64,000 nt of DNA from Gudongella oleilytica (GCF_004101785.1 NZ_CP035130.1:1550001-1614000), one strand, 5' to 3'; positions 27,850 through 49,987 are shown, numbered from the stretch's first letter. The notes: a model not told the origin generated them from the sequence alone. Numbers and translations: made by a program.

Positions 27850-28470
27850 CTATTTCTTTTTCCTTCTGAGCCTTATCTTAATAAGCTCTTTATCCATTTC
27901 AGAGCTTATGGCATCTTTTGAAATATCAAGCTTCATCGACAGTTGTTCAACAAGAAGCTTTACAAAATTTTTCTTCCAATCAGTCATCATAGGATCATAC
28001 GTCAATGAGTATGCAGCTAATTTCCCAAGATCCTCTTCTATCTTACCTTCCCTGCACTGTTCGAAGTCTATGCCGTAGATCTCTCCATCCTTAATCAGGA
28101 AATTCCTAAAATTTACATCACCCATAATATAATTGCCGTACTTACTGGAACTTAATGTGTCATAGAATGCTTCAAGCCAATCCGACAGCTTAAGTATCAT
28201 TGGCAATATACTATCCGCATTTGTCTTTTCAATGCTTTCATACCAATCCAGCAGCGTTTCGTCACCAAGGTCCTCAAGATAAATAGAATCTGAGGTGACC
28301 TTAAGCACCTCAGGCACTCTACAGTTCCTACCATGAAGCAATCTAAGTATGCTGAGCTCCCTTTTCATGTCTTCTTTGTCAATGAAAGTCTTTAATATGC
28401 TGTTTCCCTCATCTTCAAGCAACCTATATACCTTGTTTCTTTTACTTGTAAGCTTCACCTTCTTACACAT
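27850..28470 (-). CDS. kinase-like phosphotransferase (APH/RIO-like fold)
   Basis: 206 residues, last gene of the long operon. N-terminal lobe with a basic strand pattern, then a kinase catalytic-like loop MGDVNFRNFLIKDG (cf. HGDxxxxN; here Gly-Asp with Asn five residues on) and IYGIDFEQC (cf. the Mg-binding IDFE). These features place it with small aminoglycoside/choline-kinase-like or lipopolysaccharide-kinase-like proteins. The substrate is unknown. Its start overlaps the end of the MobB-like gene by 16 bases, so it is translationally coupled. No RBS stands out. Confidence 0.75.
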   Translation of the reverse strand: MCKKVKLTSKRNKVYRLLEDEGNSILKTFIDKEDMKRELSILRLLHGRNCRVPEVLKVTSDSIYLEDLGDETLLDWYESIEKTNADSILPMILKLSDWLEAFYDTLSSSKYGNYIMGDVNFRNFLIKDGEIYGIDFEQCREGKIEEDLGKLAAYSLTYDPMMTDWKKNFVKLLVEQLSMKLDISKDAISSEMDKELIKIRLRRKKK

Positions 28471-29210
28471 ATCTCTATATCCCCATTGTCTGAATAGCCA
28501 TTAAGCTCACTTGAAATTCCAATTATCGTATTCTTTATTATCCTTTGAACAAAGGGCACCATTGGTATTTCTGTGCCATCTATACGAAGAACAACTTCCT
28601 GCCTATCAAGAACACAATCACCTCTATGGGAAAGTCCCTGTGCTATTCTTGCTCCCAGTTCGCAGCAGGTAAATCCGCATGCCCTGCAGCATTCATCACT
28701 TACATCCGGCAAAGGTCTGAAGCTTCTCTTTTCTATCAGGTCAACAAGAGCTTCTATGTCAGTCATGGAATTTATTACAGGTACTCCCTTATACTCCCTG
28801 ATCTTTGAAGCTATTCTTCCGGAAATCGCTATAACAGTTCCGTCAAGCCTTGATTCTATACCTTCTATGTCATGAGCTGTCACTATCTTAGCAGTGGAGC
28901 TGTCTCTTACTCCTTCCATGATCACATAATCCTGATTATAAAACCTCAATATTTCATTGACAGGTAGTTTCTCCTGAAAAAGAATATCAGTTTCTTTGTC
29001 ACCACGGGCGGTGACCAATGTTGCGCCTGCTTGCTTGTGCCTGTCAGTATTGGTACCATCCATATCCATCTTGAACTCATGAAAATGTATCTCCTTGATG
29101 GTCCCTACAGACCTTCCTCTTCTAGTCAGTTCTCTGATTATGTTTTCAATTGTCGTAGTTTTCCCAGATTTGCTGATCCCTACAACTGATAATACCTTCA
29201 TTTTACCCAC
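28455..29210 (-). CDS. MobB-like GTPase with C-terminal Fe-S-type cysteine motif
   Basis: 251 residues from GTG 29210, seven bases after GAGGTGG; ATG 29201 is an alternative. Residues ~4-165 are MobB-like: P-loop VVGISKSGKTTTIENII, then HFHEFKMDMDGTNTDRHKQAGA, as in molybdopterin-guanine dinucleotide synthesis protein B. The C-terminal part has CCRACGFTCCELGARIAQGL with a further Cys 13 residues later, resembling the 4Fe-4S motif of PF04060. MobB helps attach GMP to molybdopterin. No mobA, moa, moe or mod gene is in the window, so a different cofactor role is possible. Confidence 0.85.
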   Translation of the reverse strand: MGKMKVLSVVGISKSGKTTTIENIIRELTRRGRSVGTIKEIHFHEFKMDMDGTNTDRHKQAGATLVTARGDKETDILFQEKLPVNEILRFYNQDYVIMEGVRDSSTAKIVTAHDIEGIESRLDGTVIAISGRIASKIREYKGVPVINSMTDIEALVDLIEKRSFRPLPDVSDECCRACGFTCCELGARIAQGLSHRGDCVLDRQEVVLRIDGTEIPMVPFVQRIIKNTIIGISSELNGYSDNGDIEICVRR

Positions 29211-29241
29211 GTATAATCCACCTCTCATAATATGTGATCTA

Positions 29242-29973
29242 TCAGCCCAACAAAGCTATCAACATAACAAATACCAATGCCATAGATAAAACTATATAAT
29301 CAATTATACCAAACCTAAGGACGACCCAACTGGTTCTAGTAGGATATGCCCTGAATGACCTTGCCTCCATGGCAACTGATAGCTCCTTTGCTTTGATAAG
29401 TGAGTTGATTGTAATAGGCATAAGCAAATATGTATATGCCCTTAGTTTTTTCCCTATCCCGATTTTCTTAAAATCAAGTCCTCTAAGCTGTATCGCATTT
29501 GTCATATCAATAAACTCCTCCCGAAATACCGGAAAAAATCTTACTCCTACAGACACCATAAAAGCGATCTCATAGGGGATCCTTAGCTTGATCATTCCCT
29601 GAATCATCTCTCTGCTGCTTGATGATACCAAAATCAGCGAAGAAGAAGCAATAATCCCCATACGCAGCAAAAATTCAATTCCCCTTGATGCTCCAAAGTC
29701 AGTCAAAATAACTATCTCGCCAATCTTGAGCAAAGGGATCCCGGAGTTGGTGAATAAACTTTGTATAACTGCTATCCCTGCTACAAGTATCAATAATCCT
29801 TTGAGTCTCGACAGAAGGTATGAAATCTCTTTATTCGTCGATATTGACGTAATGAACGATATTAACAGGATTATTGCCAATATCCTTAGATCAGAGTAGA
29901 CGATTGCAAGAGTGGAAAAAATTGCTGCCGTAATAAGCTTGGTTCTGGGGTCCAGTCTAATGTCTGTGATCAT
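29242..29973 (-). CDS. ecfT: ECF transporter transmembrane (T) component
   Basis: 243 residues. ECF T components couple the two ATPases to the substrate-binding S protein for uptake of vitamins, metals or cofactors. Opening DPRTKLITAAIFSTL is the family signature. Five to six membrane helices. Both ATPase-coupling motifs are seen in the C-terminal half: IQLRGLDF and the Ala-Arg-Ser motif VAMEARSFRAYP. Overlaps the upstream ATPase gene by 17 bases. Confidence 0.93.
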   Translation of the reverse strand: MITDIRLDPRTKLITAAIFSTLAIVYSDLRILAIILLISFITSISTNKEISYLLSRLKGLLILVAGIAVIQSLFTNSGIPLLKIGEIVILTDFGASRGIEFLLRMGIIASSSLILVSSSSREMIQGMIKLRIPYEIAFMVSVGVRFFPVFREEFIDMTNAIQLRGLDFKKIGIGKKLRAYTYLLMPITINSLIKAKELSVAMEARSFRAYPTRTSWVVLRFGIIDYIVLSMALVFVMLIALLG

Positions 29974-30625
29974 CTACTATTCCACCGTCCTCTATTCTTA
30001 TTATCCTATCTGCATGTCTGGCAACAAAGTCTTCATCGTGACTTATAATTAGCATTCCCACCCCATTCGCCTTTAAAGAATCAAGTGTTGATGACAAGCT
30101 CTCTATCCTATCGGGATCAAGAAATGAAGTAGGTTCATCAAGTATTAGAAAACTAATATCAGACATTAGTGCTGCTGCTATCGCAAGGCGTCTTTTTTCT
30201 CCGTAGCTCAAGGTAGAGGGATGTCTATCTCTGAGATCTGTCAGTTCAAAAGCTTCCAGCAATTTATTTGCCTTAGCATAGGTCTCTGACTCTTCAATCC
30301 CCTTCAACCTGTTAACAAAGGTCAGCTCATCCAGTACCGTCATACCGAACAGCTGCCTCTCGACGGCCTGAAACACGTATCCAAGCTTAGTGCCCAGTTC
30401 CCCCAGGGACATTTCTTTAATATCTTCTCCGTCAACGACTACCCTGCCCTTCTGAGGGTGCAGCATCCCGGCAGCAAGCTTTGACAGGGTCGTTTTCCCA
30501 GAACCGTTGTTTCCTGTGATAGCTGTTGTTTCTTCACTGTTGATAGCAAGAACCAGACTCTGGAAGATATTATTACTCCTTCTATACTTAAAATCAACAT
30601 TTTCAAATACAATAAATGGTTTCAT
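29957..30625 (-). CDS. ecfA2: ECF transporter ATP-binding protein
   Basis: 222 residues. Complete ABC ATPase: Walker A GNNGSGKTTLSKL (about residues 37-49), Q-loop YVFQ, signature LSYGEKRRLAIAAAL, Walker B FLILDEPTSFLDP and switch His in IISHDE. It lies between its partner ATPase and EcfT with minimal gaps, so it forms the EcfA-A'-T module with them. The number in the symbol is by position only. Confidence 0.93.
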   Translation of the reverse strand: MKPFIVFENVDFKYRRSNNIFQSLVLAINSEETTAITGNNGSGKTTLSKLAAGMLHPQKGRVVVDGEDIKEMSLGELGTKLGYVFQAVERQLFGMTVLDELTFVNRLKGIEESETYAKANKLLEAFELTDLRDRHPSTLSYGEKRRLAIAAALMSDISFLILDEPTSFLDPDRIESLSSTLDSLKANGVGMLIISHDEDFVARHADRIIRIEDGGIVDDHRH

Positions 30626-30636
30626 GACCTCAGCCC

Positions 30637-31284
30637 TTACAATCTTACTATTTTGTCGGCAATATCTATCTTTTCATCTCTATGATCTGCTAATAAAATT
30701 GTTGTTCCGTGTTTTTTTAGCTCAATCAGCAAATCTCTTACCGCTTTTCTTCCTTCCAAATCGAGCCAGGACAATATCTCATCGCACAACAATATTCGAG
30801 GCTTCATCGTCAGAACGGATCCGATCGCAACGAGCTGCTGCTGACCTCCCGAAAGATTAGCTGGATTAAGATTCCTGTGTTTCTCTAATCCAATGATCCT
30901 TAAAACATCGTTCATTCTATTGCCAATTTCTTCTCTCGGTATGCACAGGTTCTCGGGGCCAAATGCTAACTCGTCCTCAATAGTTGGTGAAAATAGCTGA
31001 GTGGCAGGGTTTTGAAATACAATGCCAACTATCGTAGATAGGCTTACATGTGATATACTTGATATTTTCTCACCGAATATTGAGATAGTGCCAACCATTT
31101 CCCCCTGATATACTCTCGGACACAATCCGGCAATGCAACGTAGAAGCGTACTTTTTCCACACCCGCTCTTGCCAACGACCGCGGTTATACTACCTTCCTC
31201 CACATCAAGGTCGATGCCTGTAAATGCTTTCTTCTCTGAGCCTTTGTATGTAAAGGAAAGCCCGGTTATCTCTATTGCCTTCAT
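30637..31284 (-). CDS. ecfA1: ECF transporter ATP-binding protein
   Basis: 215 residues from ATG 31284 after GAGGTGGTCAA. Walker A GKSGCGKSTLLRCIAG, signature NLSGGQQQLVAIGSVL, Walker B ILLCDEILSWLDLEG and the switch His in LLADHRDE are present. Note Asp-Glu-Ile-Leu-Ser in place of the usual DEPTS after Walker B. Its ATG overlaps the stop of the preceding gene by four bases. Partner of the ATPase at 29957. Confidence 0.93.
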   Translation of the reverse strand: MKAIEITGLSFTYKGSEKKAFTGIDLDVEEGSITAVVGKSGCGKSTLLRCIAGLCPRVYQGEMVGTISIFGEKISSISHVSLSTIVGIVFQNPATQLFSPTIEDELAFGPENLCIPREEIGNRMNDVLRIIGLEKHRNLNPANLSGGQQQLVAIGSVLTMKPRILLCDEILSWLDLEGRKAVRDLLIELKKHGTTILLADHRDEKIDIADKIVRL

Positions 31285-31802
31285 TTGACCACCTCGATCC
31301 CTGTGACCCACTTGCATCTCCTGTTACTAAAGGAATCGTTGATAACTATTATTTCAAAAGGTCCTCTTCCTCCATCCTCAATTCCACCCAGATAATTTCC
31401 TTCCTCCATAACAGCTATGTAGATGTTGCCATAATCTAACACTTCCTCACCGGAATATGCAACGGAAAAACCGTCAGCTCCTGTAGCGATAATAATATCC
31501 TTTCCATTTATTTCGTAGCCCAGGCTCGCTAATAGCTTGATCAATTGAACTCCTGTATACTCAAGTAAAGAAGCTTCTGTAGTCGAAGTATCAAGTACTG
31601 CCTCGAAGTCCTCAAGTCCTATAGACTGTAAAGTCTCAAGATCTACTTTATCGCTCAAATCTTTCGATTTTACCTCTATTGCTGAGCTCTCCAAAAGTTC
31701 CCTTCGGGACTCGATCTCTGATTTATTAAGTAACAATGCAGCAAAAAAAATGACAATTAAAATGATTATTATAAAAATTGCTGCTTTAGTTGTTTTATTC
31801 AT
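31281..31802 (-). CDS. membrane-anchored single sulfite-oxidase-fold-like domain protein
   Basis: 173 residues: N-terminal TM anchor (residues 7-26), then one copy of the domain that recurs through this operon. Recognisable landmarks are LEYTGVQLIKLLASLGY, the ATGADGFSV turn, a strand (NIYIAVMEEG), GGRGPFEIIV and the closing CKWVTGIEVVK. The pattern resembles the oxidoreductase molybdopterin-binding (SUOX) fold, but the position of the cofactor cysteine before the DGF turn is occupied by non-cysteine residues. A ligand-binding rather than catalytic role is my inference. Faces the outside of the membrane. Coupled to the ECF ATPase gene. Confidence 0.68.
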   Translation of the reverse strand: MNKTTKAAIFIIIILIVIFFAALLLNKSEIESRRELLESSAIEVKSKDLSDKVDLETLQSIGLEDFEAVLDTSTTEASLLEYTGVQLIKLLASLGYEINGKDIIIATGADGFSVAYSGEEVLDYGNIYIAVMEEGNYLGGIEDGGRGPFEIIVINDSFSNRRCKWVTGIEVVK

Positions 31803-31803
31803 T

Positions 31804-32817
31804 CTATTTCTCCCTTGTGAAATACGGAACTATCATATCCTCATATCTACATACTCCATGGTCACCACCCTCATTGGTGGAATGCATTCCATGGTCGGCG
31901 GTCGCATAAATGTTTCCTTCCCAGGAACTTGAGATGTTCGTGATCCACTCATCTACGGTCTTTACATAATCCAGGGTTTCACTGGATTGAGGACCATATT
32001 GATGTCCTCTGTCATCGACCCCGTGAAAATGAATGAAGATCAAATCATAGTCTTCGTTCACAGCACCAAGTGCAGTAATAACCATCTCATCATCAGTATC
32101 TCCATCCTTATCGACATCCACATGAAGTACAGGCTCTATCTCGGTATTGAGGATCTTTATTTCACCCTCCAGCAATAGGGATCTCTTCCCTATTGAATCT
32201 GCATAACCAAATATGCTTTCTGCTTTCAGGTCTCTGTAGCTTCTGTCATGGACCCCATTTTCATCAGGTGTCTTTCCTGTTATCATTGCTGCAAATCCAG
32301 CATTTGTAACTGGTGTAAATACACTGATGATTTTGTCTTCATAGTACTCCCCCAAAAAATGCAATTCGCCTGTTTCCGCCACATTACTGTATTGATCAAA
32401 TGATAAACCGTCAATAAAAAAAACAAGAACAGGGACACCATCATCAAGTGATTTTATGACATCGTCATATAACTTGGTAATGGATTCCACTTTTTCCCCC
32501 AAATATATACCAGCAAGCGGTCCATCGACATATCCATTTTCCACGTATACCATATTATTCTTGCTTTCCAGGTTTGGAAGCTCACTAAAGCTCTCTCTCT
32601 TTCCCGATTGAAATAGCAGGGATCCCTCGGTGATTTTTTTAGAAACAATAGAGTCCTCTATCTCAATGCCATTTGGATACCAGTTGAAAAGTATATTTTC
32701 TTCGAGAGTGAACACACCTATGCCCATCTCCTTCTGATACGCAGGCTCCGCGCTTCCACACCCTGAAAGAATTATTGTTAATAGTAATAGTATCATTCCA
32801 AAAAAATTTATTTTCAT
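31804..32817 (-). CDS. lipoprotein phosphodiesterase/nucleotide-pyrophosphatase-like
   Basis: 337 residues. Lipobox LSGC (Cys 20) makes it an exported lipoprotein. The body matches the type I phosphodiesterase/alkaline phosphatase superfamily: VLVFFIDGLSFDQY (first metal Asp), TPVTNAGFAAMITGKTPDENG (nucleophile region), LIFIHFHGVDDRGHQYG (metal ligands Asp, His) and ATADHGMHSTNEGGDHG. Relatives cleave nucleotide sugars or dinucleotides such as FAD. Placed between the S component and another surface-domain gene, it might trim a nucleotide-linked cofactor before uptake; this is inference. Confidence 0.84.
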   Translation of the reverse strand: MKINFFGMILLLLTIILSGCGSAEPAYQKEMGIGVFTLEENILFNWYPNGIEIEDSIVSKKITEGSLLFQSGKRESFSELPNLESKNNMVYVENGYVDGPLAGIYLGEKVESITKLYDDVIKSLDDGVPVLVFFIDGLSFDQYSNVAETGELHFLGEYYEDKIISVFTPVTNAGFAAMITGKTPDENGVHDRSYRDLKAESIFGYADSIGKRSLLLEGEIKILNTEIEPVLHVDVDKDGDTDDEMVITALGAVNEDYDLIFIHFHGVDDRGHQYGPQSSETLDYVKTVDEWITNISSSWEGNIYATADHGMHSTNEGGDHGVCRYEDMIVPYFTREK

Positions 32818-32826
32818 TTTAATTCC

Positions 32827-33390
32827 TCACAGATTCAGACCTAATTTATCTAATGCCTTCAGAAGGTTCCATGCTATGACACCGCCTAAAGCTCCAGAAA
32901 GTGCAGCTCCTGAAATCAGCAATAATAACATCTCAGCTGGCAGTCTAAAGAATAATAAGTTTGATATTATAGTTCCTGTAATATTTGCTGCCATGCACCC
33001 TAACATGAAATGTATCAGATTATAGCTCTTATTCCTTGAAAACATAAATACCAGATCAGCTACAACTCCTGGAAGTGTGTACGAAAAAATGCTCAATACT
33101 CCGTGACTCCCTATCACACCAGTTGCTACTACTATCAAGCCCTGAACCAAACCTATCAATGTCCCTGTCCAGGTTTTTTTGACAAAGCCGATTCCCAGAA
33201 TGATCCACAGCATATAAAAGCCACCTGCTATCGCTCCACCTGGTATAAATAATGGTCCTGTAATTATATGCACAAGAGGCACTACTATTGGTTTAGTAGC
33301 TACACCAAGTGCTGCGACCACCGCTATTGCTACCAATTCAAATATCGTATATCTGTCGAAAAACCGTTTGTTGGAGCTCAAATCAATCAT
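32827..33390 (-). CDS. ECF transporter substrate-binding (S) component
   Basis: 187 residues with about six hydrophobic helices, e.g. FELVAIAVVAALGVATKPIV and VHIITGPLFIPGGAIAGGFYMLW. The size and the AA-x-G-VA start to helix 1 fit ECF S components. It is encoded in the same operon as EcfA, EcfA' and EcfT, so they form one dedicated transporter. Substrate not known; the sequence does not show the motifs I know for riboflavin, thiamine, biotin or folate S proteins. Overlaps the upstream gene by eight bases. Confidence 0.83.
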   Translation of the reverse strand: MIDLSSNKRFFDRYTIFELVAIAVVAALGVATKPIVVPLVHIITGPLFIPGGAIAGGFYMLWIILGIGFVKKTWTGTLIGLVQGLIVVATGVIGSHGVLSIFSYTLPGVVADLVFMFSRNKSYNLIHFMLGCMAANITGTIISNLLFFRLPAEMLLLLISGAALSGALGGVIAWNLLKALDKLGLNL

Positions 33391-33883
33391 CAGCTCCTTC
33401 TGAAGGTACTATAACTATTTCATCAATATGTTTGATCCAACGTTGGCTGAAGGGATCCCGTCTTATTACTAATTGATAAGGACCATTTCCTCCTTTTTTC
33501 CTGGATAGCATGTACTCTCCATCTCTCGCAAAGGCCAGATAAACATTATGGTGTTCCTCCAGTTCTTCTTTTAAGATCACTATCCTGTAACCGTCCTCTG
33601 CATTTAAGGTTATCTTTTCACTAGGCTTAACACCCAAGCCTTCAAATAATTTTGATAACTCTATCCCGGTATACTCAGTTTCAACTGGCTTCTGTCCGCT
33701 GCTTCTGACAACTGATGGGAATGTTTCCGCATCAGAGTGATTATATATGTATTCCGGGTCAACACTTATTATTTCCTCACCTATTACTATATTCAGGACG
33801 GGTGCTCCTTCCCTTGTTAAAAGGAAAAACCCTGAAGCTATAATTACAGTTAGAAAAATTACAATGAAATATTTTTTCTTCAT
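33383..33883 (-). CDS. membrane-anchored single sulfite-oxidase-fold-like domain protein
   Basis: 166 residues: TM anchor (residues 5-22, FIVIFLTVIIASGFFLL), then one operon-type domain: TEYTGIELSKLFEGLGV, the NAEDGYRIV turn, NVYLAFARDG, GGNGPYQLVIRRD and closing RWIKHIDEIVIV. It is the sister of the gene at 31281. No cysteine is present, so the SUOX-type Mo-ligating residue is missing. It is encoded immediately before the ECF S component, suggesting it presents a ligand to the transporter. Confidence 0.68.
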   Translation of the reverse strand: MKKKYFIVIFLTVIIASGFFLLTREGAPVLNIVIGEEIISVDPEYIYNHSDAETFPSVVRSSGQKPVETEYTGIELSKLFEGLGVKPSEKITLNAEDGYRIVILKEELEEHHNVYLAFARDGEYMLSRKKGGNGPYQLVIRRDPFSQRWIKHIDEIVIVPSEGADD

Positions 33884-33895
33884 AAAATTCTCCCC

Positions 33896-35071
33896 TTAAT
33901 CAAGAGCTGATGCCTGGCTTATTCCGCTTCTTACTGCACCCAGGAATCCCCTGGTGGTTGCAGTCGCTCCGCTTAAGGCATCGATGCTTATGCTCTGAGT
34001 AGCCACGATCTCTGATCCAACAAATCTGAATACTTCTTCGTAGTAGCCTTCTGTTTCTCTATGGCTAACTATACTTATATTGCTGACTCTTCCTCCCTCG
34101 ACATATATCTCAGCCATCAACGGCCCGCCAAAGCCGGTGCCAAGGCCTATATAGCTTCCATCCCTGAGCTCTCCTACTGGTAGCCTGGATGTGGTATTTT
34201 GAGTTGCCCCAATAACAGGTAATACTATATAGGAGAAGACAAGAATTGTCATGGAAATAATCACGATTCTTATTCCCTTGACAGGTCGGTTGAAAAGTCT
34301 TATAGAATAGCCCTTATTTCCCTTAATGCAATTTGATTCTACACATCGCATACAGCCAATGCATTCAGGACTTGCTGAACCATAATCGAAGGACTCAATT
34401 CCTACCGGGCAGTCCCTAAGACAATATGAACAGCTGCTGCAATTCTCTGAATCTTTTATACTTGTAAATCCTACAGCAGAAAGCAGAGCCTGGTAAGCTC
34501 CAAGTGGACACAGAAATCTGCAAAATGGTCTCTTGATCTTAAGGGATATAACCAAAAATAAAATCAACAATATTAAGCCTGTATGAAACTTCAAACCAGC
34601 AAATATATTGAGATATCCAAGCCATGGAGACATCGGGGTCAGCAGATTTCCAAGTCCAAATATCCCAAGGATCACGACTGACAAAAATACAACATATTTT
34701 GTCTTTTCAAGGTCTTTAGTCAGCTTGGAAGACTTGATGCTCTTCAGTCCTAATTTTCTGCCAATAAGGTTTGATATATCCTGAAGCATTCCTATTGGAC
34801 AAACATATCCGCAAAAAACTCTGCCGGATACTATGGCTGCTAAGGTTATCCCTATTGTAAGAGCCATCCCTCTTGTTATTCCTCTCCATCTGTATGATAC
34901 ATCTGTTAAGCCTGCCTTCAGATGGCTAAAGCCTGCATATGGATTCAGATCAGCGATCGAAAAAGATCTTATCTCAGTGATCCCATTTAAGTATAGATAG
35001 TACATTATGCAGTTGACAGCTACAATGGCTGCAGCAATAAGCTGCAGCCTTATTCTAATATCTCGCCTCAT
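33896..35071 (-). CDS. NapH/NosR-like membrane Fe-S protein with C-terminal FMN-binding domain
   Basis: 391 residues. Four to five TM helices (about 10-30, 70-90, 130-150, 160-180, 270-290). Fe-S or redox motifs: CGYVCPIGMLQDI and CRFLCPLGAYQ (polyferredoxin-type CxxxCP pairs), then a soluble 2[4Fe-4S] part, CSSCSYCLRDCPVGI and CIGCMRCVESNC. The C-terminal ~90 residues are an FMN_bind domain ending with the flavinylation motif SGATATTRG, where ApbE would attach FMN to Thr. It should carry electrons across or along the membrane. Its gene overlaps the next upstream by four bases. Confidence 0.9.
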   Translation of the reverse strand: MRRDIRIRLQLIAAAIVAVNCIMYYLYLNGITEIRSFSIADLNPYAGFSHLKAGLTDVSYRWRGITRGMALTIGITLAAIVSGRVFCGYVCPIGMLQDISNLIGRKLGLKSIKSSKLTKDLEKTKYVVFLSVVILGIFGLGNLLTPMSPWLGYLNIFAGLKFHTGLILLILFLVISLKIKRPFCRFLCPLGAYQALLSAVGFTSIKDSENCSSCSYCLRDCPVGIESFDYGSASPECIGCMRCVESNCIKGNKGYSIRLFNRPVKGIRIVIISMTILVFSYIVLPVIGATQNTTSRLPVGELRDGSYIGLGTGFGGPLMAEIYVEGGRVSNISIVSHRETEGYYEEVFRFVGSEIVATQSISIDALSGATATTRGFLGAVRSGISQASALD

Positions 35072-36642
35072 TTTATCTCGATCCTCAAAAGGTCATTTGT
35101 GAGTATCTTTTCACCATTATGAAGTGATACCTCATCTCCATTATCTATTATACTGCATTGAAGCATCGTTGCGTAGTCCAGCGGAAATATGCTCCCATCT
35201 GATGCTATGGCTGAAAATGACGCTCCTTCCTCCCATCTCATGCCTGCTGTCAATAGAACATCCTCCAGAAGCATCCCTTCCTCATCTCCTGCAAACTTAG
35301 TCCTGACAACATCTATCATTTTCTCCGGGAAAACTACGGCATCTTTTGTCGTTGAGAAATGGGTCATATGCTTTACGTTCATGCCCAGTTTAAATCCAGG
35401 AGCAATATTCATTGGTGCATTCTCTCCCTCGATTTTTATAAAGTACCGTTGGATCACCAGGGATATAGTCTCGTTTTTTTCCAAACCATCGTTGGCAGCC
35501 ATAGTGAAGAAGCCCTTCTTATCGATCTCGTCAAACTTTGACAGTATTTTCCCTACTTCTATGGATTTGTCCTTACTGCCATAATATTCATAGTAATAGG
35601 GCTCTATACCTCTTGTTAGAGCATCGAACATATGGACCTTGGTAATATTCTTTGGTGATATCTTTTCGTAAAGGTCAATGTTCGACACCATTTTTACCCA
35701 ATAAGGTCCCAGCTCGTTGGGGATCGCAACCCTAACAGGCTTTTCTTCATCCTTTACATGCTTTCCGTCTACCTCCCAAGCCAAGATAACTTCATTCACA
35801 TCTAATTTTTCTTTACCCACTAAGGTATAGTATCCATCTCTGCCTGTTATGCCTATCCCTTCAAAGCTGGACAGATCTATTCCTTCAGCATCAAGCAATG
35901 CTTTAAGAGTGGGGCCTTTCACCTTCATATTGGTATGTGTCCCAGTGGTATTTATAAGAACTACTTCTCTTTCTACCTGTTCATATGTTTTTATCTCATC
36001 GGTATCGATCCTTATTGAGCTTTCACCCCAATTGATAGCAAAGCTGTTTACATCCTTCTGCCACATCTCCTGAGGAACAACATCTTCTACGGAAGCCATT
36101 TCGACGCCATTATTAAGGTACTGATATGCACCAATGGCTGCGTTTACTGCGTTTACTACAGCCTGAGAGCTGACAGTTGCTCCGGTTACCTGGACAATAT
36201 CCTCAGGGGATTCCTTATCCAAAGCCACAAGGTTCAGGTATTTATCTGCCCCAAGCTCCCTAAATCTCTCAAGGAACCATTCCTTCTCAATATGCTCAGC
36301 GTAATCAGGTGATTCAGTGTGCTCAATGACCTCAATTCCACTTAGAGCTTGTCCATCAAATGCAGCAAGGATCTCTACCGGCCCGTTATATCCAACGCAG
36401 CTTGAAACAATAGCCTTGATTTCACCGTCAACCTCATAGCCTCTCCTAACTGCAGGCATATTCAATGCTATGAATCCTTCATCAGAAAGATCTCTTATCA
36501 GCCTTACCTTTTTTGCTTCCGGGTAGTAGCTCCTTACCTTCGACTCCTCTTCAGAAACAGTATCTGTAAAATAAAGCATAGTAGCTGCAATAATCAATGT
36601 TACGACGAGAAAAATAATGTATTGTTTCTTACCTTTAGTCAT
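35068..36642 (-). CDS. membrane-anchored FMN-binding protein with two sulfite-oxidase-fold-like domains
   Basis: 524 residues. TM anchor (residues 8-26), an RnfG/NqrC-like FMN_bind domain (~45-170) with flavinylation motif VTGATVSSQAVV near residue 157, then two operon-type domains: residues ~205-330 (TLKALLDAEGI, GITGRDGYYTL, VILAWEVDGK, GPYWVKMVSNIDLYE) and a more diverged copy ~340-524 (MLLEDVLLTAGM, AIASDGSIFPLDYATML). This physically joins a covalent flavin carrier to the recurrent domain, the best hint that those domains take part in redox chemistry. Coupled to the NapH-like gene. Confidence 0.8.
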   Translation of the reverse strand: MTKGKKQYIIFLVVTLIIAATMLYFTDTVSEEESKVRSYYPEAKKVRLIRDLSDEGFIALNMPAVRRGYEVDGEIKAIVSSCVGYNGPVEILAAFDGQALSGIEVIEHTESPDYAEHIEKEWFLERFRELGADKYLNLVALDKESPEDIVQVTGATVSSQAVVNAVNAAIGAYQYLNNGVEMASVEDVVPQEMWQKDVNSFAINWGESSIRIDTDEIKTYEQVEREVVLINTTGTHTNMKVKGPTLKALLDAEGIDLSSFEGIGITGRDGYYTLVGKEKLDVNEVILAWEVDGKHVKDEEKPVRVAIPNELGPYWVKMVSNIDLYEKISPKNITKVHMFDALTRGIEPYYYEYYGSKDKSIEVGKILSKFDEIDKKGFFTMAANDGLEKNETISLVIQRYFIKIEGENAPMNIAPGFKLGMNVKHMTHFSTTKDAVVFPEKMIDVVRTKFAGDEEGMLLEDVLLTAGMRWEEGASFSAIASDGSIFPLDYATMLQCSIIDNGDEVSLHNGEKILTNDLLRIEIK

Positions 36643-36650
36643 TTTATAAC

Positions 36651-37469
36651 CTACTCTACAATTATTTTTTCTATATTAGAAACCCATTGAGGCTTATTAA
36701 TGTCTCCGGGCTCCTTCTGTCCTACCACCAGCTTGAAAGGCGCACCCTCTGATGGATCATAAGCTTCTCCATTCTCCTCCCAGGCTATAATTATTGGAAG
36801 CTTAACATCCTGATTCGTTTCATCAATATAATCCATTCTCTTTATTTGGGATATATCAAAATCCATACTGTAGCCGTCAGAAGCGATGACCTTCACTCTC
36901 GATGAGGATGAATCTACTATTTCCATTGCTTCCAATAACGTCCACAATTTAACTCCCTTAAAATCAGTATGGCCTGTGCTTCCAAAGCTGTTTAGCCAAT
37001 AAAAGCTCCCCGAAAAATGCAGCTCTGATCTGTCTTTCATATCATCAAGGCTCATGTAGAAAGTTTCTCCATTAGTCTTGATAAGCTGGATTGAAGGTCC
37101 ACTTGGCTTTTCAGGTTCAGCTGATTGTGATTCAACTGGTAACTCTGTTATCTGGACAGGTGCTTCCTGTGGAACTGGTTGATCTCCCAATGATGTTGAT
37201 TGTTCCTCAGGTGCTTTTGATCCCTCTGAAGCTGGCTCCTCTTCCTCAATCTCGTCAACTTCTGGCTCTGCCAAGGGTTCCTCCAATGGTGCCCCGGTGA
37301 TTATCTCTACTGGTTCCTCAGCTATGTCCGGGTCCTCTGCAGTCTCCTCAAATACCTGCTGTTCAGCCGGTACTTCAGCATCAGTGCTGTCCTTCTTGCT
37401 GCAGCCTGAGGCTACGACAGAGAGCAGCAAGAAGGCTACAACTACCAATATTATATTTTTTTTAGTCAT
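36651..37469 (-). CDS. lipoprotein with one sulfite-oxidase-fold-like domain
   Basis: 272 residues. Lipobox VASGC (Cys 23), then a ~100-residue Pro/Glu-rich spacer (24-125) that would lift the domain through the wall. The domain (about 130-272) shows HTDFKGVKLWTLLEAMEI, KVIASDGYSMDFD, IIIAWEENGE, SEGAPFKLVVGQ and WVSNIEKIIVE. The Mo-cysteine position is Ala (VIASDGY). AGGAGGAAGTAAA before the ATG. It is the third gene of the operon, following two SLH proteins with the same domain. Confidence 0.75.
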   Translation of the reverse strand: MTKKNIILVVVAFLLLSVVASGCSKKDSTDAEVPAEQQVFEETAEDPDIAEEPVEIITGAPLEEPLAEPEVDEIEEEEPASEGSKAPEEQSTSLGDQPVPQEAPVQITELPVESQSAEPEKPSGPSIQLIKTNGETFYMSLDDMKDRSELHFSGSFYWLNSFGSTGHTDFKGVKLWTLLEAMEIVDSSSSRVKVIASDGYSMDFDISQIKRMDYIDETNQDVKLPIIIAWEENGEAYDPSEGAPFKLVVGQKEPGDINKPQWVSNIEKIIVE

Positions 37470-37503
37470 TTTACTTCCTCCTTGGGGATGTCAGCTCTCA
37501 AAT

Positions 37504-40500
37504 CTATTGGTGTCCCAATAATCTCATGAGCATTACTGCTGTCTGTGCTCTGGTAGCACTCTGAGCCCCACTGAAGCTGCCATCTGGGAAGCCATCGATT
37601 ATCCCTGCTCTGACTGCAGCTGCAGCTGGTGCCTTAGCCCATTCTGGGACTGTGTCCTTAAATTCTGAAAGAGCATCGTTTATTTGCGACTCTGAAAGCT
37701 CTGTATCCACGACCCTGCCCAGGATAGCTGCAATCTCTGTTCTGGTTATTCTCCCAGAGGGTTTAAAGCTTCCATCTGAATAACCATTTACCAGACCATT
37801 TTCGACTGCCGCTGTTATGGATTTACCATACCATGACCCTATAGTTACATCCTTAAAGGAAGAGACTTTTGTCTCAGTATCCAGACCAAGGACCCTTGAA
37901 AGCAATACCACAAACTCTGCTCTGGTTATGCTGTCATTTGGCCTGAATCCTCTGGAATCTCCTTTAACGTATGACATTTCTGCCATTCTGGAAATTGAAG
38001 CCTCAGCCCAATGACCTTCGGTGTCAGCAAACTGCATCAGTTCCTTATAGACCGCTGCACCTCCGTTTGTTCCGATCATAAGACCATCCTCCGAAAAGTC
38101 CAGGAAGTAAACATTGTTCCACTGCTTAGTTGGGAATGGCTTACCATAAAGATACGCTTCTGCTTTTTCAAATTTTATATCAATCCTCGCAACTCCGCCT
38201 GCTGTTGTTGCTATATAAATTACACCAGCTTCATCAGAGCTTGCCTTGACAAGTCTTATGTCATTGTCTTCTCCTATTCCCGGATAAAGCTCTGATGCTT
38301 TGTAGGTCTTCTTCTCATTGCCAATTATATAATCAACCTCTCCCTGACCAAAGCCTGGAGCGTTCCCTGAACGAACTATCCAGACTCCTCCATCAGGGTC
38401 AACTGATATGCTCCTCACCCAATTATGGTTAAAATTGTCTGGGTCAAAGCCCTGATAAGTCGTCAGCTTGCCACTTGGATCAAGATATTGGTACCCTCCA
38501 AAATACTTAGGCTCAGCCTCTGTACCCTTAGTGTCCGGATAATATCCTATCCATACTCCTCCTTTACCATCAGGCTCAACTGCATCCACTGAGTATGGCA
38601 ATAAACCTTCAGCTTGAGTATAAATACTCCACTCCCCGGATTTATCGATGTGAACCAGACCGTTTTGAGTGCCTATATATATCCCACCATCTCCATCAAG
38701 CTCAAGCTCCTGTACAAAGCAAGCCGGAAGATTTGAATTCTCTTTATTTATACTCCTCCAGCCGTTTGGATCCTTGACAAGTATTCCTCTTGGATCGTTA
38801 GGCCCTCCCAGAGTAAGCCATAGTTCTCCATTTTCCCTCTGAACTATCGCATACACCGTATCTATCTTTAGTGTACCTGCATTTATGGTCTCTATTTCCG
38901 TAATGTGGGACCATTTCCCATCGATTGACCTTACTGAAAGCCCGCCGCCATTAGTTCCTATCCAAAGGTTCCCTTCATTATCATACTCCATAGCTCTTAC
39001 ACTGGCTTCTGACATTTCAAATCCAGTATCATTTCTATGGATTATCCAATCTACGATCGCCTCCCTATTGGTAACTGGTTCAGGAAGCTCTGGTAAATCA
39101 AGCTCTTTGATGTCCTCTGTCTTCGGTTGTTCATAATCCCCAGTGCCTACGACTATACAATCTACCCATTTGACCCACATGGATTTACTTTCTTCTATTA
39201 TAAGCCTTATAGGTCCATATGCATTATTATTTTCGTATCCAATGGAAGCTTCGTTTGGAACCAGAGGATATCCTTCCACAGCATATGCGAGCATTATTTT
39301 TTTTAGTTGTCCAGATGAATTAAGTACTCCATTCATGACCTGATCATTACTGCGTAATATTTGATTGTAGTTTGCGCCACTAAATACTCTGATGGATGGT
39401 TGATCTACTCCATCCTTGAGCTGTACAAAATCAGATATCAGTTTCCAAAGCTCTATGCCCTCGAATTCTCTTATGCCATCACCGGTATACACATCTCGCA
39501 AAATATAATCCAGCATTGACTCAAGCTGTCTTAGTGTAAAGGTCATTGGCTCCTTTACCTGAGAGCCTGTCACTCTCAAAACAGGTTGATCTAAATACTC
39601 TTTATATGCTCCCTGATTGTGGTTCCAGGTCGATGTAGAGTCTACAGATGAAGCAGTCTCCACACCTGTTCCTTGTTGGTTGATCGTACCTGTTCCAATA
39701 GCTTCTCCCTCTCCAACTATGATCTCCTTTATATATTGTACCTGATTAGAACCATTGGTATCATTATATCCTGTCTTACCAAATATTATCCTCAATGGCC
39801 CGCCGTCATTTCCTAAACCAGGGTTGAATCCTTCATCAGTCGGCCTTGTAACGTATGGATATCCATTGAAACCATAGGCTACGAGTGGTGGCATGCCTGA
39901 TTTGACCGGCTTAACATTTGAACCGTCGAACTTGCCATCTCCCAAATCTTGGGAGTCCTTCTCGTAATAACCATAAAGCTGGTAGTTCTTTATCTCTCCT
40001 ATGGTCATTGGTGCAAAATTATAATTATCTGCCGCAACGAATCTAATCTTGGTATCATTGGGAGTCTTAGGATCAAGACCAGCTTTTAGAAGGAGATCCC
40101 ACAGCTTGACTCCCTTATAGTTGTTATAATACCAGAAATACTCGCTATTTGAGAGACTGTACTCACCTGTATACTTGATATCGTCCATTGCCTCAATTTC
40201 CGATACCTTATATCTAATCTCCTTGCCAAGCGCATCTCCATGTATTATTATTTCATAATCAGTGTATTCAGTAGAGTTAAATGGAGCATAGGAATGTTCA
40301 AATATATTTTTTGCGTCCTTTTCCTCAACGTAGATATATGCAACATTTGAAAATTCCCTGGCAGAGGCTTTATCCTGCTCATATACCAGCTTGAAGCATC
40401 CATTGTCGTTGAATTTATCCTGCTTAAAACCTACGTCCGAGTCGAGGTACACATATGGCACCTCATTTACTCCATAGGCAATAGTGTATTTGTCCGCATC

Positions 40501-41439
40501 CTCTAAAGGTACTGTAAGTATAGTCTGTCTGGATTTACTCTTGAATGTAATATTTCCTGCATTTGGTCGCAGCTTTACATAGTTCTCCAAAAGGCTCTTG
40601 GCATCTACTCCCTCGTAGCTGTTCAGGAATACTCCTTGGTCAGTTTTTTCGTAGTATTCAACTACTGCCTGTTCCTTGGTGTTTTCCTCTATTTGCCTTA
40701 AGGAAATGGCTCTGTAGCCTTCTACAGCAGGTCCCTCAATAGTAAAGGTAGCTCCTGAAATGGCATCGATATTATATGGCGCTCCCGGATAGCTGATGTG
40801 TTTGTAAGGAGAAGCTGAACCCACATCAGCAAATCTTTCCTCGCCAACTATTATTTTTACAACTTGCTTTCCCCATTTGGATAAATTCATGTCATTTATA
40901 CCTGCCTGACCAAATACAAGCTTGGGAAAATCCTTATCAAGGTCACTTTCGGTGAGAGCTCTGTCGCTCCAACTGACGGGAGGTGCAAAACTGTCCTTAG
41001 GATAGTCTGCAAGTACTGCTGAATATCTGGCTATCATTGCTGGTGCTGATTTTTTGCTCTCCACGGTAAAATCGGGATAAGTGTATGTACCCTTAAGCTC
41101 GCTTATCGTCTTCTTGAAGGTAAAACCATCTGAACAGATAAAGGTCATCTCCCAATCTGTTCCTGATATAAGGTTTTCTGTTCCAATAAGCTCGAACAGA
41201 TCATAGCCCTTCACCTTTGTTATCTTGTGAAAATTCAAGCTATTGTTCCCAGAAAAAACTGCTTCCTTTATAGTATATCGGTCCCAGTCATCAGGACCTA
41301 TGGATATCTGGTTATTTATACCTGTGCCGGTTATCGTAAGATCCACTGCTTCTGCTCTCGCTATTGGGATACCTGGAAGAAATAGTGTCAGTGAAAGGAT
41401 AATCGATAACCAAGCTTTGGCCAGCTTCCTATTTTTCAT
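37504..41439 (-). CDS. giant SLH surface protein with multiple sulfite-oxidase-fold-like domains and a beta-propeller
   Basis: 1311 residues. Signal peptide (1-29), four operon-type domains (about 30-215, 240-370, 385-610, 640-775) separated by linkers, a beta-propeller of two-component-regulator type (~790-1110; repeated NLWIGTNGGGL, GELWLTLGG, GGVWIGYYPD, GGVWIVRSG), and three SLH repeats (~1120-1305; YVKGDSRGFRPNDSITR, LVNGYSDGSFKPSGRIT, IIDGFPDGSFSG). Domain 1 keeps a cysteine (FICSDGF) where the other copies have Ala or Ser. Propellers of this type usually bind ligands or polysaccharide. It is wall-anchored and could carry several ligand sites. Confidence 0.87.
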   Translation of the reverse strand: MKNRKLAKAWLSIILSLTLFLPGIPIARAEAVDLTITGTGINNQISIGPDDWDRYTIKEAVFSGNNSLNFHKITKVKGYDLFELIGTENLISGTDWEMTFICSDGFTFKKTISELKGTYTYPDFTVESKKSAPAMIARYSAVLADYPKDSFAPPVSWSDRALTESDLDKDFPKLVFGQAGINDMNLSKWGKQVVKIIVGEERFADVGSASPYKHISYPGAPYNIDAISGATFTIEGPAVEGYRAISLRQIEENTKEQAVVEYYEKTDQGVFLNSYEGVDAKSLLENYVKLRPNAGNITFKSKSRQTILTVPLEDADKYTIAYGVNEVPYVYLDSDVGFKQDKFNDNGCFKLVYEQDKASAREFSNVAYIYVEEKDAKNIFEHSYAPFNSTEYTDYEIIIHGDALGKEIRYKVSEIEAMDDIKYTGEYSLSNSEYFWYYNNYKGVKLWDLLLKAGLDPKTPNDTKIRFVAADNYNFAPMTIGEIKNYQLYGYYEKDSQDLGDGKFDGSNVKPVKSGMPPLVAYGFNGYPYVTRPTDEGFNPGLGNDGGPLRIIFGKTGYNDTNGSNQVQYIKEIIVGEGEAIGTGTINQQGTGVETASSVDSTSTWNHNQGAYKEYLDQPVLRVTGSQVKEPMTFTLRQLESMLDYILRDVYTGDGIREFEGIELWKLISDFVQLKDGVDQPSIRVFSGANYNQILRSNDQVMNGVLNSSGQLKKIMLAYAVEGYPLVPNEASIGYENNNAYGPIRLIIEESKSMWVKWVDCIVVGTGDYEQPKTEDIKELDLPELPEPVTNREAIVDWIIHRNDTGFEMSEASVRAMEYDNEGNLWIGTNGGGLSVRSIDGKWSHITEIETINAGTLKIDTVYAIVQRENGELWLTLGGPNDPRGILVKDPNGWRSINKENSNLPACFVQELELDGDGGIYIGTQNGLVHIDKSGEWSIYTQAEGLLPYSVDAVEPDGKGGVWIGYYPDTKGTEAEPKYFGGYQYLDPSGKLTTYQGFDPDNFNHNWVRSISVDPDGGVWIVRSGNAPGFGQGEVDYIIGNEKKTYKASELYPGIGEDNDIRLVKASSDEAGVIYIATTAGGVARIDIKFEKAEAYLYGKPFPTKQWNNVYFLDFSEDGLMIGTNGGAAVYKELMQFADTEGHWAEASISRMAEMSYVKGDSRGFRPNDSITRAEFVVLLSRVLGLDTETKVSSFKDVTIGSWYGKSITAAVENGLVNGYSDGSFKPSGRITRTEIAAILGRVVDTELSESQINDALSEFKDTVPEWAKAPAAAAVRAGIIDGFPDGSFSGAQSATRAQTAVMLMRLLGHQ

Positions 41440-41460
41440 AATTGCACCTCCTGTGCTATG

Positions 41461-41489
41461 AAAAGAGCGAAGACTTTTGCCCTCGCTCT
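41461..41489 (-). terminator. weak internal terminator between the two SLH genes
   Basis: AGAGCGA / TCGCTCT hairpin on the minus strand followed by TTTTCATAG. The gap between the two genes is only 64 bases. It may lower expression of the giant downstream gene rather than end the transcript. Confidence 0.45.
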
Positions 41490-41503
41490 ATCCGTCCTAT
41501 TCT

Positions 41504-42649
41504 TTACTCTAAATCCTGCTCGGCGAACAGGGTGTTATATACTATTACAGCTGCTTCAGCTCTGTTGACTACCTTTGTTGGTTGGAATTGGCCCTCTGCA
41601 ACGCCAGCAAATACTCCCTGAGCTTCTAGCCAAGCTACTTCGTTTGCAGCCCACTCAGGTACTAAGAGCTTGTCTTCGTAATTGGATTTTTCCATCACAA
41701 ATTTATTCAACTTCTCCTGTGCAACTACCTCTGCCATAACTGCAGCTCTACCAGCAACAGCTGCAATTTCTTGTCTATTTATTACTTTAATCGGCATAAA
41801 GGTTCCATCTGGGTAGCCTGTGAATATACCATTATCTACTGCTGTCTGAACATATGGTGCAAACCAATCACTTGCTTTGACATCGCTGAACCCGCCCTTA
41901 TACTCTACAAGCTCATAGCCAAGAGAAACTACCGCTATCTTGCAGAACTCTGCTCTTGTGAAGCTACCTGCAGGGTCAAACAAATCGTTGCCCTTTCCAT
42001 TTACTATTCCCTTTTGTGCCAAGCCTTCAATAGCAGATTTTGCGAAGGCGAATTCATCCGTTAAATCTGTAAATACAACTGCCGCAGGCTCTTCAGCTAC
42101 AGGATCCTCGACAACAGGTTCTTCAACAATCGGCTCTATTGCTTCTCCTACTGTAATTTCAGCCACTAGCTTAAATACTGTTCCAAATTCACCTGATTCT
42201 TTAACCTTTCTATATACGACTATTTCATCTGTTTCAGGATTCTCGTCATTGTCTATAGCTAAACCATTTACTTCATATGCTATTACATACTTTAGACTTT
42301 CTGCCATAATATCTGTAAGCATTTGAGGGTCGATCGGATAACCATCTGAAGCAACCATAGCAACCTCAGCCTCTTCTACTTTAAGCCCCGCAAGCTCTCT
42401 AAGTACATATGCAAGACTTACGCCTTTAACTGTAACAGTCTTTTCACCTGTTTTGCTGTTATATATGTATTCCTCGTCGATTTGTGCTTCCTCTGGCATT
42501 GCCTTAAGCTCATCCAAAGTCAGTGAAAGCTCTTTTTCTACCCCTGCACCATTAATAACTACAACTGCTTCGCCTTCTGCAAATACAACCTGTGAGAAAA
42601 GCATAGCAATAACTAATAATAAAGCAGATACCTTTTTAAACTTTGTCAT
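41504..42649 (-). CDS. SLH surface protein with one sulfite-oxidase-fold-like domain (first gene of the operon)
   Basis: 381 residues from ATG 42649, seven bases after AGGTGG. Signal peptide (1-24, ending VFA); domain (~25-170) with LSLTLDELKAMPEEA, GVSLAYVLRELAGL, AMVASDGYPIDPQ, YVIAYEVNGLAID and FKLVAEITVGE; a Val/Glu/Pro linker; three SLH repeats (~190-378), among them IVNGKGNDLFDPAGSFTR and IFTGYPDGTFMPIKVINR. No cysteine in the domain. Anchored to the cell wall. As the promoter-proximal gene it should be the most abundant product of the operon. Confidence 0.85.
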   Translation of the reverse strand: MTKFKKVSALLLVIAMLFSQVVFAEGEAVVVINGAGVEKELSLTLDELKAMPEEAQIDEEYIYNSKTGEKTVTVKGVSLAYVLRELAGLKVEEAEVAMVASDGYPIDPQMLTDIMAESLKYVIAYEVNGLAIDNDENPETDEIVVYRKVKESGEFGTVFKLVAEITVGEAIEPIVEEPVVEDPVAEEPAAVVFTDLTDEFAFAKSAIEGLAQKGIVNGKGNDLFDPAGSFTRAEFCKIAVVSLGYELVEYKGGFSDVKASDWFAPYVQTAVDNGIFTGYPDGTFMPIKVINRQEIAAVAGRAAVMAEVVAQEKLNKFVMEKSNYEDKLLVPEWAANEVAWLEAQGVFAGVAEGQFQPTKVVNRAEAAVIVYNTLFAEQDLE

Positions 42650-42699
42650 AATCCATCCACCTTTCATGTTTTGTTTGTACTCCGCAGGAAAGGAATGAC

Positions 42700-42787
42700 T
42701 GCAAAAACAAAAAGCAGCATTCCCAATGGAAATACTGCATAACTCTCCTTTCCATCAGGAGGCCCCGCCGTTTCCAGCTGAACCCTA
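42700..42787 (-). promoter_or_regulatory. structured leader with terminator: candidate riboswitch or attenuator
   Basis: RNA starting about 42785 could fold into hairpin 1 (GCUG-GAAA-CGGC, 42767-42778), hairpin 2 (CTCCT/AGGAG, 42745-42761) and an intrinsic terminator (11-bp stem 42714-42738 followed by TTTTTGTTTTTGCA). The loop of hairpin 2, ATGGAAA (42749-42755), is exactly complementary to TTTCCAT (42726-42732) in the terminator's 5' arm, so loop pairing and terminator formation exclude each other. I do not recognise a known riboswitch class. The terminator lies 51 bases before the start codon at 42649. Confidence 0.62.
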
Positions 42788-42791
42788 TCGG

Positions 42792-42820
42792 TTTATAAAC
42801 CATAAATAATCGAAGGTCAA
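42792..42820 (-). promoter_or_regulatory. sigma-A-type promoter of the 14-gene operon
   Basis: TTGACC (42815-42820) and TATAAA (42792-42797) on the minus strand are separated by 17 bases; the predicted start of transcription is near 42785, just before the structured leader. Confidence 0.7.
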
Positions 42821-49693: not shown

Positions 49694-49987
49694 AAAAAAA
49701 GCTCTCGTCACTTTGCAAAATGCAAAGGGACGAAAGCATCGTGGTACCACCCTAATTCACCTGTTTCTCGCGAAACAAGCCTTGTAAAGTACGCAGGAAA
49801 AATCCTTTAATACTCCGGCACTGTAACGTGTGCATCACGTGCCTGCCTAAATACCACAGGGTGTTTCGACAAGCATGCTCAGGGACCATATTCGGCTTGC
49901 TATCCTCTGCCCTCTTTCACCAAATGAGAGCTCTCTGTGAGAGTGTTCACACGCTTACTCTTCCCGTCTAAGCTGTTTTTCAACTTA
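49694..49987 (-). promoter_or_regulatory. T-box leader controlling the metN operon, with terminator
   Basis: The 14-nt T-box AGGGTGGTACCACG lies at 49740-49753. Stem I precedes it; its likely specifier sequence is GAAUAUGGUCCCUGAG, placing an AUG (Met) codon at 49887-49889. The tRNA-acceptor-binding UGGU would pair with a discriminator A, as in tRNA-Met. A strong terminator (16-bp stem 49701-49737 and seven U residues) follows. So uncharged tRNA-Met should raise transcription of metN-metQ-dehydrogenase-metI. UAU (Tyr) in the neighbouring register cannot be fully ruled out. Confidence 0.92.

Follow-up and report, generated by a model that had tools for sequence, protein, structure and literature searches.

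Which compound might be imported by a transporter encoded together with surface-exposed sulfite oxidase (SUOX)-like domains and predicted flavin-carrying membrane proteins is the question raised by a fourteen-gene operon of Gudongella oleilytica. The operon lies on a stretch of 64,000 nt (GCF_004101785.1 NZ_CP035130.1:1550001-1614000), referred to as the window, whose coordinates are used throughout. In the original prediction, the surface domains were supposed to bind a cofactor or redox molecule, which is trimmed by a phosphodiesterase, imported by an energy-coupling factor (ECF) transporter and reduced by flavoproteins; the cofactor was left without a name, because the riboswitch preceding the operon had not been seen. 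Binding, trimming, import and reduction are all compatible with the findings reported here, the trimming and redox steps being still tentative. We propose, with a probability of roughly 0.78, that the operon is a salvage or uptake system for the tungsten or the molybdenum cofactor (Tuco or Moco), a pterin of the molybdopterin type, and that this cofactor represses it through the riboswitch. The cargo is assigned on account of the riboswitch, the neighbouring genes, the predicted folds and the phyletic pattern; transport is predicted.

A tungsten-type riboswitch in the operon leader

As judged from the gene layout, the operon is confirmed: the minus strand carries all 14 open reading frames (27850-42667), which either overlap or are separated by 64 bases at most. 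Upstream, on the same strand, the Rfam covariance model RF01055 recognizes a Moco/Tuco riboswitch aptamer (42843-42729; 66.4 bits, the gathering cut-off being 36), 61 bases away from the first gene. The P3 stem is absent, which marks the Tuco subtype, and is likewise absent from all operon riboswitches inspected; P3-lacking RF01055 RNAs have been tied to Tuco metabolism by Regulski et al. (PMC2408646). The promoter initially placed at 42792-42820 falls inside the aptamer and had to be abandoned. A better candidate, TTTACA-17-TAAAAT (42878-42850, minus strand), is a consensus match only, three such matches being found and 2.0 expected by chance.

A strong intrinsic terminator (42738-42714, minus strand) lies directly 3' of the aptamer, between it and the first gene, and the GGAAA of the aptamer can pair with the 5' arm of the terminator, UUUCC. 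From this arrangement, the riboswitch is expected to turn the operon off when it binds its ligand. A terminator follows the aptamer in 24 of 26 operons.

A search for the S component (EcfS) over 150 genomes of the order found a close relative in 36, the window genome included. RF01055 is located upstream, on the same strand, in all 29 genomes with a riboswitch match on the contig that carries EcfS; in the remaining seven carriers the operon is cut by, or close to, a contig end. A scan of GTDB contigs yielded 261 EcfS relatives, the best 80 of which were examined: 51 of these are preceded by RF01055 on the same strand, many of the others being short or cut contigs. The operon neighbours and the riboswitch are both absent around distant EcfS paralogues (27-31% identity).

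The window genome contains a second RF01055, before tupABC-moeA-moeA-moaA-moaC, and G. oleilytica should therefore be able to make the cofactor and to import tungstate. A third, weak match (G000 957928; 25 bits), in the vicinity of recombinases, was disregarded. Elsewhere, in a Desulfotomaculaceae metagenome-assembled genome (MAG), two tandem Moco/Tuco riboswitches directly precede EcfS (L162 6096-6370, plus strand) and a third one precedes tupA in the same locus. In a moa-less genome of the Sedimentibacter type (G070), a P3-containing, molybdenum-type riboswitch (L079 9929-10057, minus strand) stands before a MobA-MoeA fusion, MobB and an ABC transporter, unlike the riboswitch of the ECF operon of the same genome, which has no P3 and is of the tungsten type.

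Conservation of the gene neighbourhood

Conservation across genomes had been named as a check of the original prediction. Homologous loci do keep the ECF genes and the shared SUOX-like domain together, often along with FMN_bind genes, and the arrangement, recurring in many genera and families, is not due to chance. In most loci of the order, EcfS, phosphodiesterase, SUOX-like protein, EcfA1, EcfA2, EcfT, MobB and kinase are found together, in variable order (MobB precedes EcfS in one family). Only in some families does the half coding for surface and flavin proteins lie upstream, other families having it elsewhere; in two genomes (G034 and G020) the S-layer homology (SLH), SUOX and FMN genes form a separate unit with a P3-lacking riboswitch of its own, and some loci retain the ECF core but not the large surface proteins. 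The best 80 GTDB loci include Sedimentibacter, Geosporobacter, Maledivibacter, Alkaliphilus, Anaerovirgula, Pelotomaculum and Sporotomaculum, as well as Clostridium ultunense, Syntrophomonas and Dehalococcoidia. The operon of Sedimentibacter-type loci continues into a FAD_binding_2+FMN_bind reductase as its last gene (L038 16274-18169, plus strand), a candidate reductase for the captured cofactor.

Genes of molybdenum and tungsten (Mo/W) metabolism recur at these loci: moeA is inside the operon at three of them (L125, L142 and L168, confirmed at L125), tupABC adjoins it at two (L152 and L153), and fdhD and tupA lie just upstream at another (L150). The presence of two FMN_bind proteins might instead suggest that the transporter moves riboflavin or FAD for their flavinylation, by analogy with the extracellular electron transfer locus of Listeria, where an ECF module is described as serving extracytosolic flavin (PMC9973259); the whole operon would then be a redox system. 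However, the MobB, moeA and tupABC neighbours speak for another cargo, and loci such as L107 keep EcfS, the SUOX-like gene and EcfAAT with no FMN_bind gene nearby. Flavin transport was rejected, and is regarded as highly improbable, on two further grounds: EcfS resembles YkoE, not RibU, and the controlling riboswitch is of the Moco/Tuco type.

Distribution of the operon and of cofactor biosynthesis

In the 150 genomes of the order, a strong match to aldehyde ferredoxin oxidoreductase (AFOR) or molybdopterin oxidoreductase was taken to define a Mo/W-enzyme genome. The operon is present in 36 of the 108 genomes so defined and in none of the other 42 (p about 1e-6, uncorrected for phylogeny). Within the enzyme-bearing group, it is found in 17 of the 27 genomes without moaA and in 19 of the 81 with it (p 2.6e-4, again uncorrected for phylogeny). 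Two of the 17 carriers in which moaA does not exceed the cut-off keep moaC. All the 15 carriers left without both genes have AFOR and/or formate dehydrogenase (FdhF), with as many as 12 AFOR_C matches in G034, and 12 of the 15 also lack moeA (MoeA_N). No strong TupA match was found in any of the 15, ModABC and WtpABC not having been searched for. One carrier is a complete chromosome, that of Clostridiaceae bacterium M8S5 (G031; CP118523.1), where fdhD, mobA and fdhA lie side by side, but moaA, moaC and moeA are absent. Along the EcfS tree, the moa genes switch between presence and absence 8 times or more, which indicates that their loss has been repeated. Two seeming exceptions (G089 and G134) actually carry the operon, cut by a contig end.

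Since moaA, moaC, moeA and TupA are jointly missing in 12 carriers, gene content makes import of the metal-loaded cofactor more likely than import of a precursor. The cargo could still be an early or metal-free intermediate, such as cyclic pyranopterin monophosphate or molybdopterin: moeA inside three operons leaves room for metal-free molybdopterin, and G070 retains its MobA-MoeA fusion under a P3-containing riboswitch. The 12 carriers with neither moeA nor a close TupA do not fit this view, and we consider it unlikely.

Predicted folds and functions of the encoded proteins

Structure prediction for the shared domain, which had been recommended, was performed on the 173-aa membrane-anchored PruR/SUOX-like protein (31281-31802, minus strand, as for all genes below). 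The model (pLDDT 95) has a PruR-like fold: pterin-binding PruR structures come first among its structural matches, sulfite oxidases rank behind them, and like PruR it is a SUOX-type fold, some 170 aa long, that lacks the catalytic Cys. In the alignment of the 173-aa family, the only one examined column by column, no Cys ligand column is found in residues 40-100. The position of the PruR pterin-site Tyr, placed by pairwise alignment, is occupied by Tyr or Phe in 43 of 43 rows; the candidate position of the PruR Trp, placed by eye, by Trp in 28 of 43, and by Arg in the window protein. Membrane passage of pterins is described as unexplained in a review (PMC13259868).

The matches to PF00174 would also be expected if the SUOX-like proteins were surface Mo/W enzymes, riboswitch-controlled users of the cofactor fed by the flavin and iron-sulphur (FeS) chain, the ECF transporter supplying an unrelated vitamin or metal. 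P3-lacking RNAs were indeed reported before 'sulphite oxidases' of Syntrophomonas wolfei, as puzzling exceptions, by Regulski et al. (PMC2408646). Enzyme identity was nevertheless rejected, given the lack of a conserved Cys column in the 173-aa family and the best folds being those of non-enzymatic PruR proteins; the persistence of the ECF core without large surface proteins, and a terminator layout suggestive of an OFF switch, add to making this explanation very unlikely. Going by their published description, the S. wolfei proteins are probably surface proteins of the system described here.

The 187-aa EcfS (32827-33390; PF09819, 47 bits) is the proposed Tuco/Moco carrier. A sequence-profile search gave no PDB relative, and its structure was therefore modelled (pLDDT 91): the best structural match is YkoE (5EDL, TM-score 0.73), while RibU structures rank lower. 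Together with EcfA1 (30637-31317), EcfA2 (29957-30625) and EcfT, of the CbiQ family (29242-29973), the operon encodes an S component of ECF-S fold, two ATPases and a T protein, from which substrate transport is predicted. A YkoE-like EcfS next to a PruR-like protein could also denote an importer of thiamine, hydroxymethylpyrimidine or another pterin, by chance under this riboswitch, or a PruR-like pterin signalling system. We attach very little probability to either, because none of the surrounding genes that were mapped or listed looked like a signalling gene, and the operon is constantly associated with genes for the Mo/W cofactor and with the loss of moa genes.

As for the remaining parts, Pfam and NCBIfam domain calls bear out the predicted list of SLH, lipoprotein and membrane-anchored proteins. 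The shared domain is PF00174 (Oxidored_molyb), present in six proteins, though three of the six matches are under the curated cut-off. The first gene encodes a 387-aa SLH protein with one SUOX-like domain (41504-42667); it is followed by a 1311-aa SLH protein with SUOX-like domains and a propeller (37504-41439), a 272-aa lipoprotein with a SUOX-like domain (36651-37469) and a 524-aa membrane-anchored protein combining FMN_bind and SUOX-like domains (35068-36642). The second FMN_bind protein is, as proposed, a NapH/NosR-like membrane FeS protein, of 391 aa (33896-35071), and a small membrane-anchored PruR/SUOX-like protein of 166 aa precedes EcfS (33383-33883). Flavinylation-like motifs were recognized by eye in three proteins: TGAT in the 524-aa one, SGAT in the NapH/NosR-like protein and in the larger SLH protein.

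Pfam families equally agree with the earlier identification of the phosphodiesterase, transporter, MobB-like and kinase-like genes. The exported phosphodiesterase (337 aa, 31804-32817; PF01663) is of the NPP type (type I), with remote PDB matches to ENPP. Residues D136, T171, D268, H272, D308, H309 and H320 are invariant in 16 rows; from superfamily knowledge, we take them to be the candidate ligands of the NPP metal site and the Thr/Ser nucleophile. In many carriers this protein has a long N-terminal extension, SUOX-like by eye and not called by Pfam (L049 7963-9432, minus strand). The MobB-like protein (257 aa, 28455-29228) contains a PF03205 GTPase domain (79.6 bits) and a C-terminal, FeS-like cysteine domain. 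The last gene encodes a small APH/RIO/Bud32-like kinase (206 aa, 27850-28470), whose catalytic residues K27, E38 (nearly), D118, N123 and D135 are conserved. Outside the operon, a T-box leader (49723-49979, minus strand) lies upstream of an NLPA/methionine-type ABC transporter operon.

A possible route of cofactor salvage

In the mechanism that we propose, cofactor released by other cells would be bound by the S-layer and membrane SUOX-like proteins, and its dinucleotide forms (molybdopterin guanine or cytosine dinucleotide) would be cut by the phosphodiesterase to the nucleotide-free form. The flavinylated and FeS proteins may keep, or bring, the pterin, the dithiolene or the metal in the reduced state, for either capture or transport. 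EcfS, with EcfA-A'-T, would import the cofactor; the kinase may restore a phosphate lost on the way, and the MobB-like GTPase may receive the cofactor inside the cell or hand it over, feedback repression by the cofactor being provided by the riboswitch. In G. oleilytica, which retains de novo synthesis, the system might act as a supplementary scavenger.

Several points weigh against import of Moco or Tuco. Free Moco is labile, and relatives of YkoE are linked to thiamine precursors. Cargo binding and transport are computational predictions, and G. oleilytica has a de novo pathway of its own. Many of the surveyed genomes are draft MAGs, and MoaE (PF02391) proved a poor marker of biosynthesis and was dropped, since Pfam does not find it even in moaA-containing genomes. 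Moreover, five genomes at least 90% complete (G006, G079, G122, G140 and G147) have Mo/W-enzyme genes with neither moaA above cut-off nor this EcfS, so that some other route, or non-functional enzymes, must exist. Instability of Moco is also noted by Regulski et al. (PMC2408646).

The complete genome G006, one of these five, encodes a selenocysteine-type FdhF (C1:2178783-2180051; L180) and mobA, and has no moaA, moaC, moeA, MoaE or EcfS of this kind; either a different import route or a non-functional enzyme may account for it.

Relation to known systems and implications

The single parts are of known kinds: an ECF transporter, PruR-like proteins, a Moco riboswitch and a NapH-like flavin system. 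ECF vitamin transporters (S components of the YkoE, ThiT and RibU type; PDB 5EDL) similarly combine, within one operon, an S component of this fold with a CbiQ-like T protein and two ATPases. The present operon adds a Moco/Tuco riboswitch, extracytosolic proteins resembling pterin-binding ones, a phosphodiesterase, MobB and a kinase; we found no described ECF S component for molybdopterin. PruR (PDB 7KOS, 7KOU, 7KOM and 7KP2; PMC13259868) is likewise an exported, Cys-less SUOX fold of about 170 aa with a pterin-site Tyr, for which Tyr or Phe is aligned here, whereas the proteins described here are anchored to membrane or S-layer, occur in Firmicutes and other groups, lie beside a predicted importer instead of DcpA and, in the 173-aa protein of the window, have Arg at the candidate position of the PruR Trp.

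The known RF01055 regulon (PMC2408646) also features P3-lacking aptamers and terminators before Tuco-related genes, but here the controlled genes encode a predicted ECF importer and surface proteins instead of biosynthetic proteins or an enzyme. The NapH-like FeS membrane protein with FMN_bind is shared with flavinylated electron transfer systems of the NapH-like kind (PMC8238504), and is coupled in our case to a proposed cofactor import operon; the words molybdopterin and sulfite oxidase do not occur in the main text of that survey, and flavinylation surveys, by the terms searched, do not mention this type of locus. In Caenorhabditis elegans, mature Moco is acquired from the diet and thus passes between organisms (PMC9793310), with no transporter identified in the animal, while candidate genes can be named here.

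No bacterial importer of Moco or molybdopterin was found in the open-access literature searched. Moco and Tuco are generally regarded as made by every organism that uses them, because they are unstable outside proteins. We lean towards seeing in this operon the first uptake system for an intact W/Mo cofactor, combining surface pterin-binding proteins with a reducing flavin chain, in organisms many of which have lost the pathway, the cofactor being a shared good in anaerobic communities. If this is true, a cofactor thought to be necessarily self-made would for the first time have a known uptake route, and Moco and Tuco would be salvaged and exchanged between cells. The Mo/W enzymes of genomes without moa genes would be explained, the S. 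wolfei exceptions would find a likely explanation, and non-enzymatic SUOX-like proteins of Firmicutes would acquire a role. The same genes would be candidates for the questions about cofactor transport raised in animals (PMC9793310).

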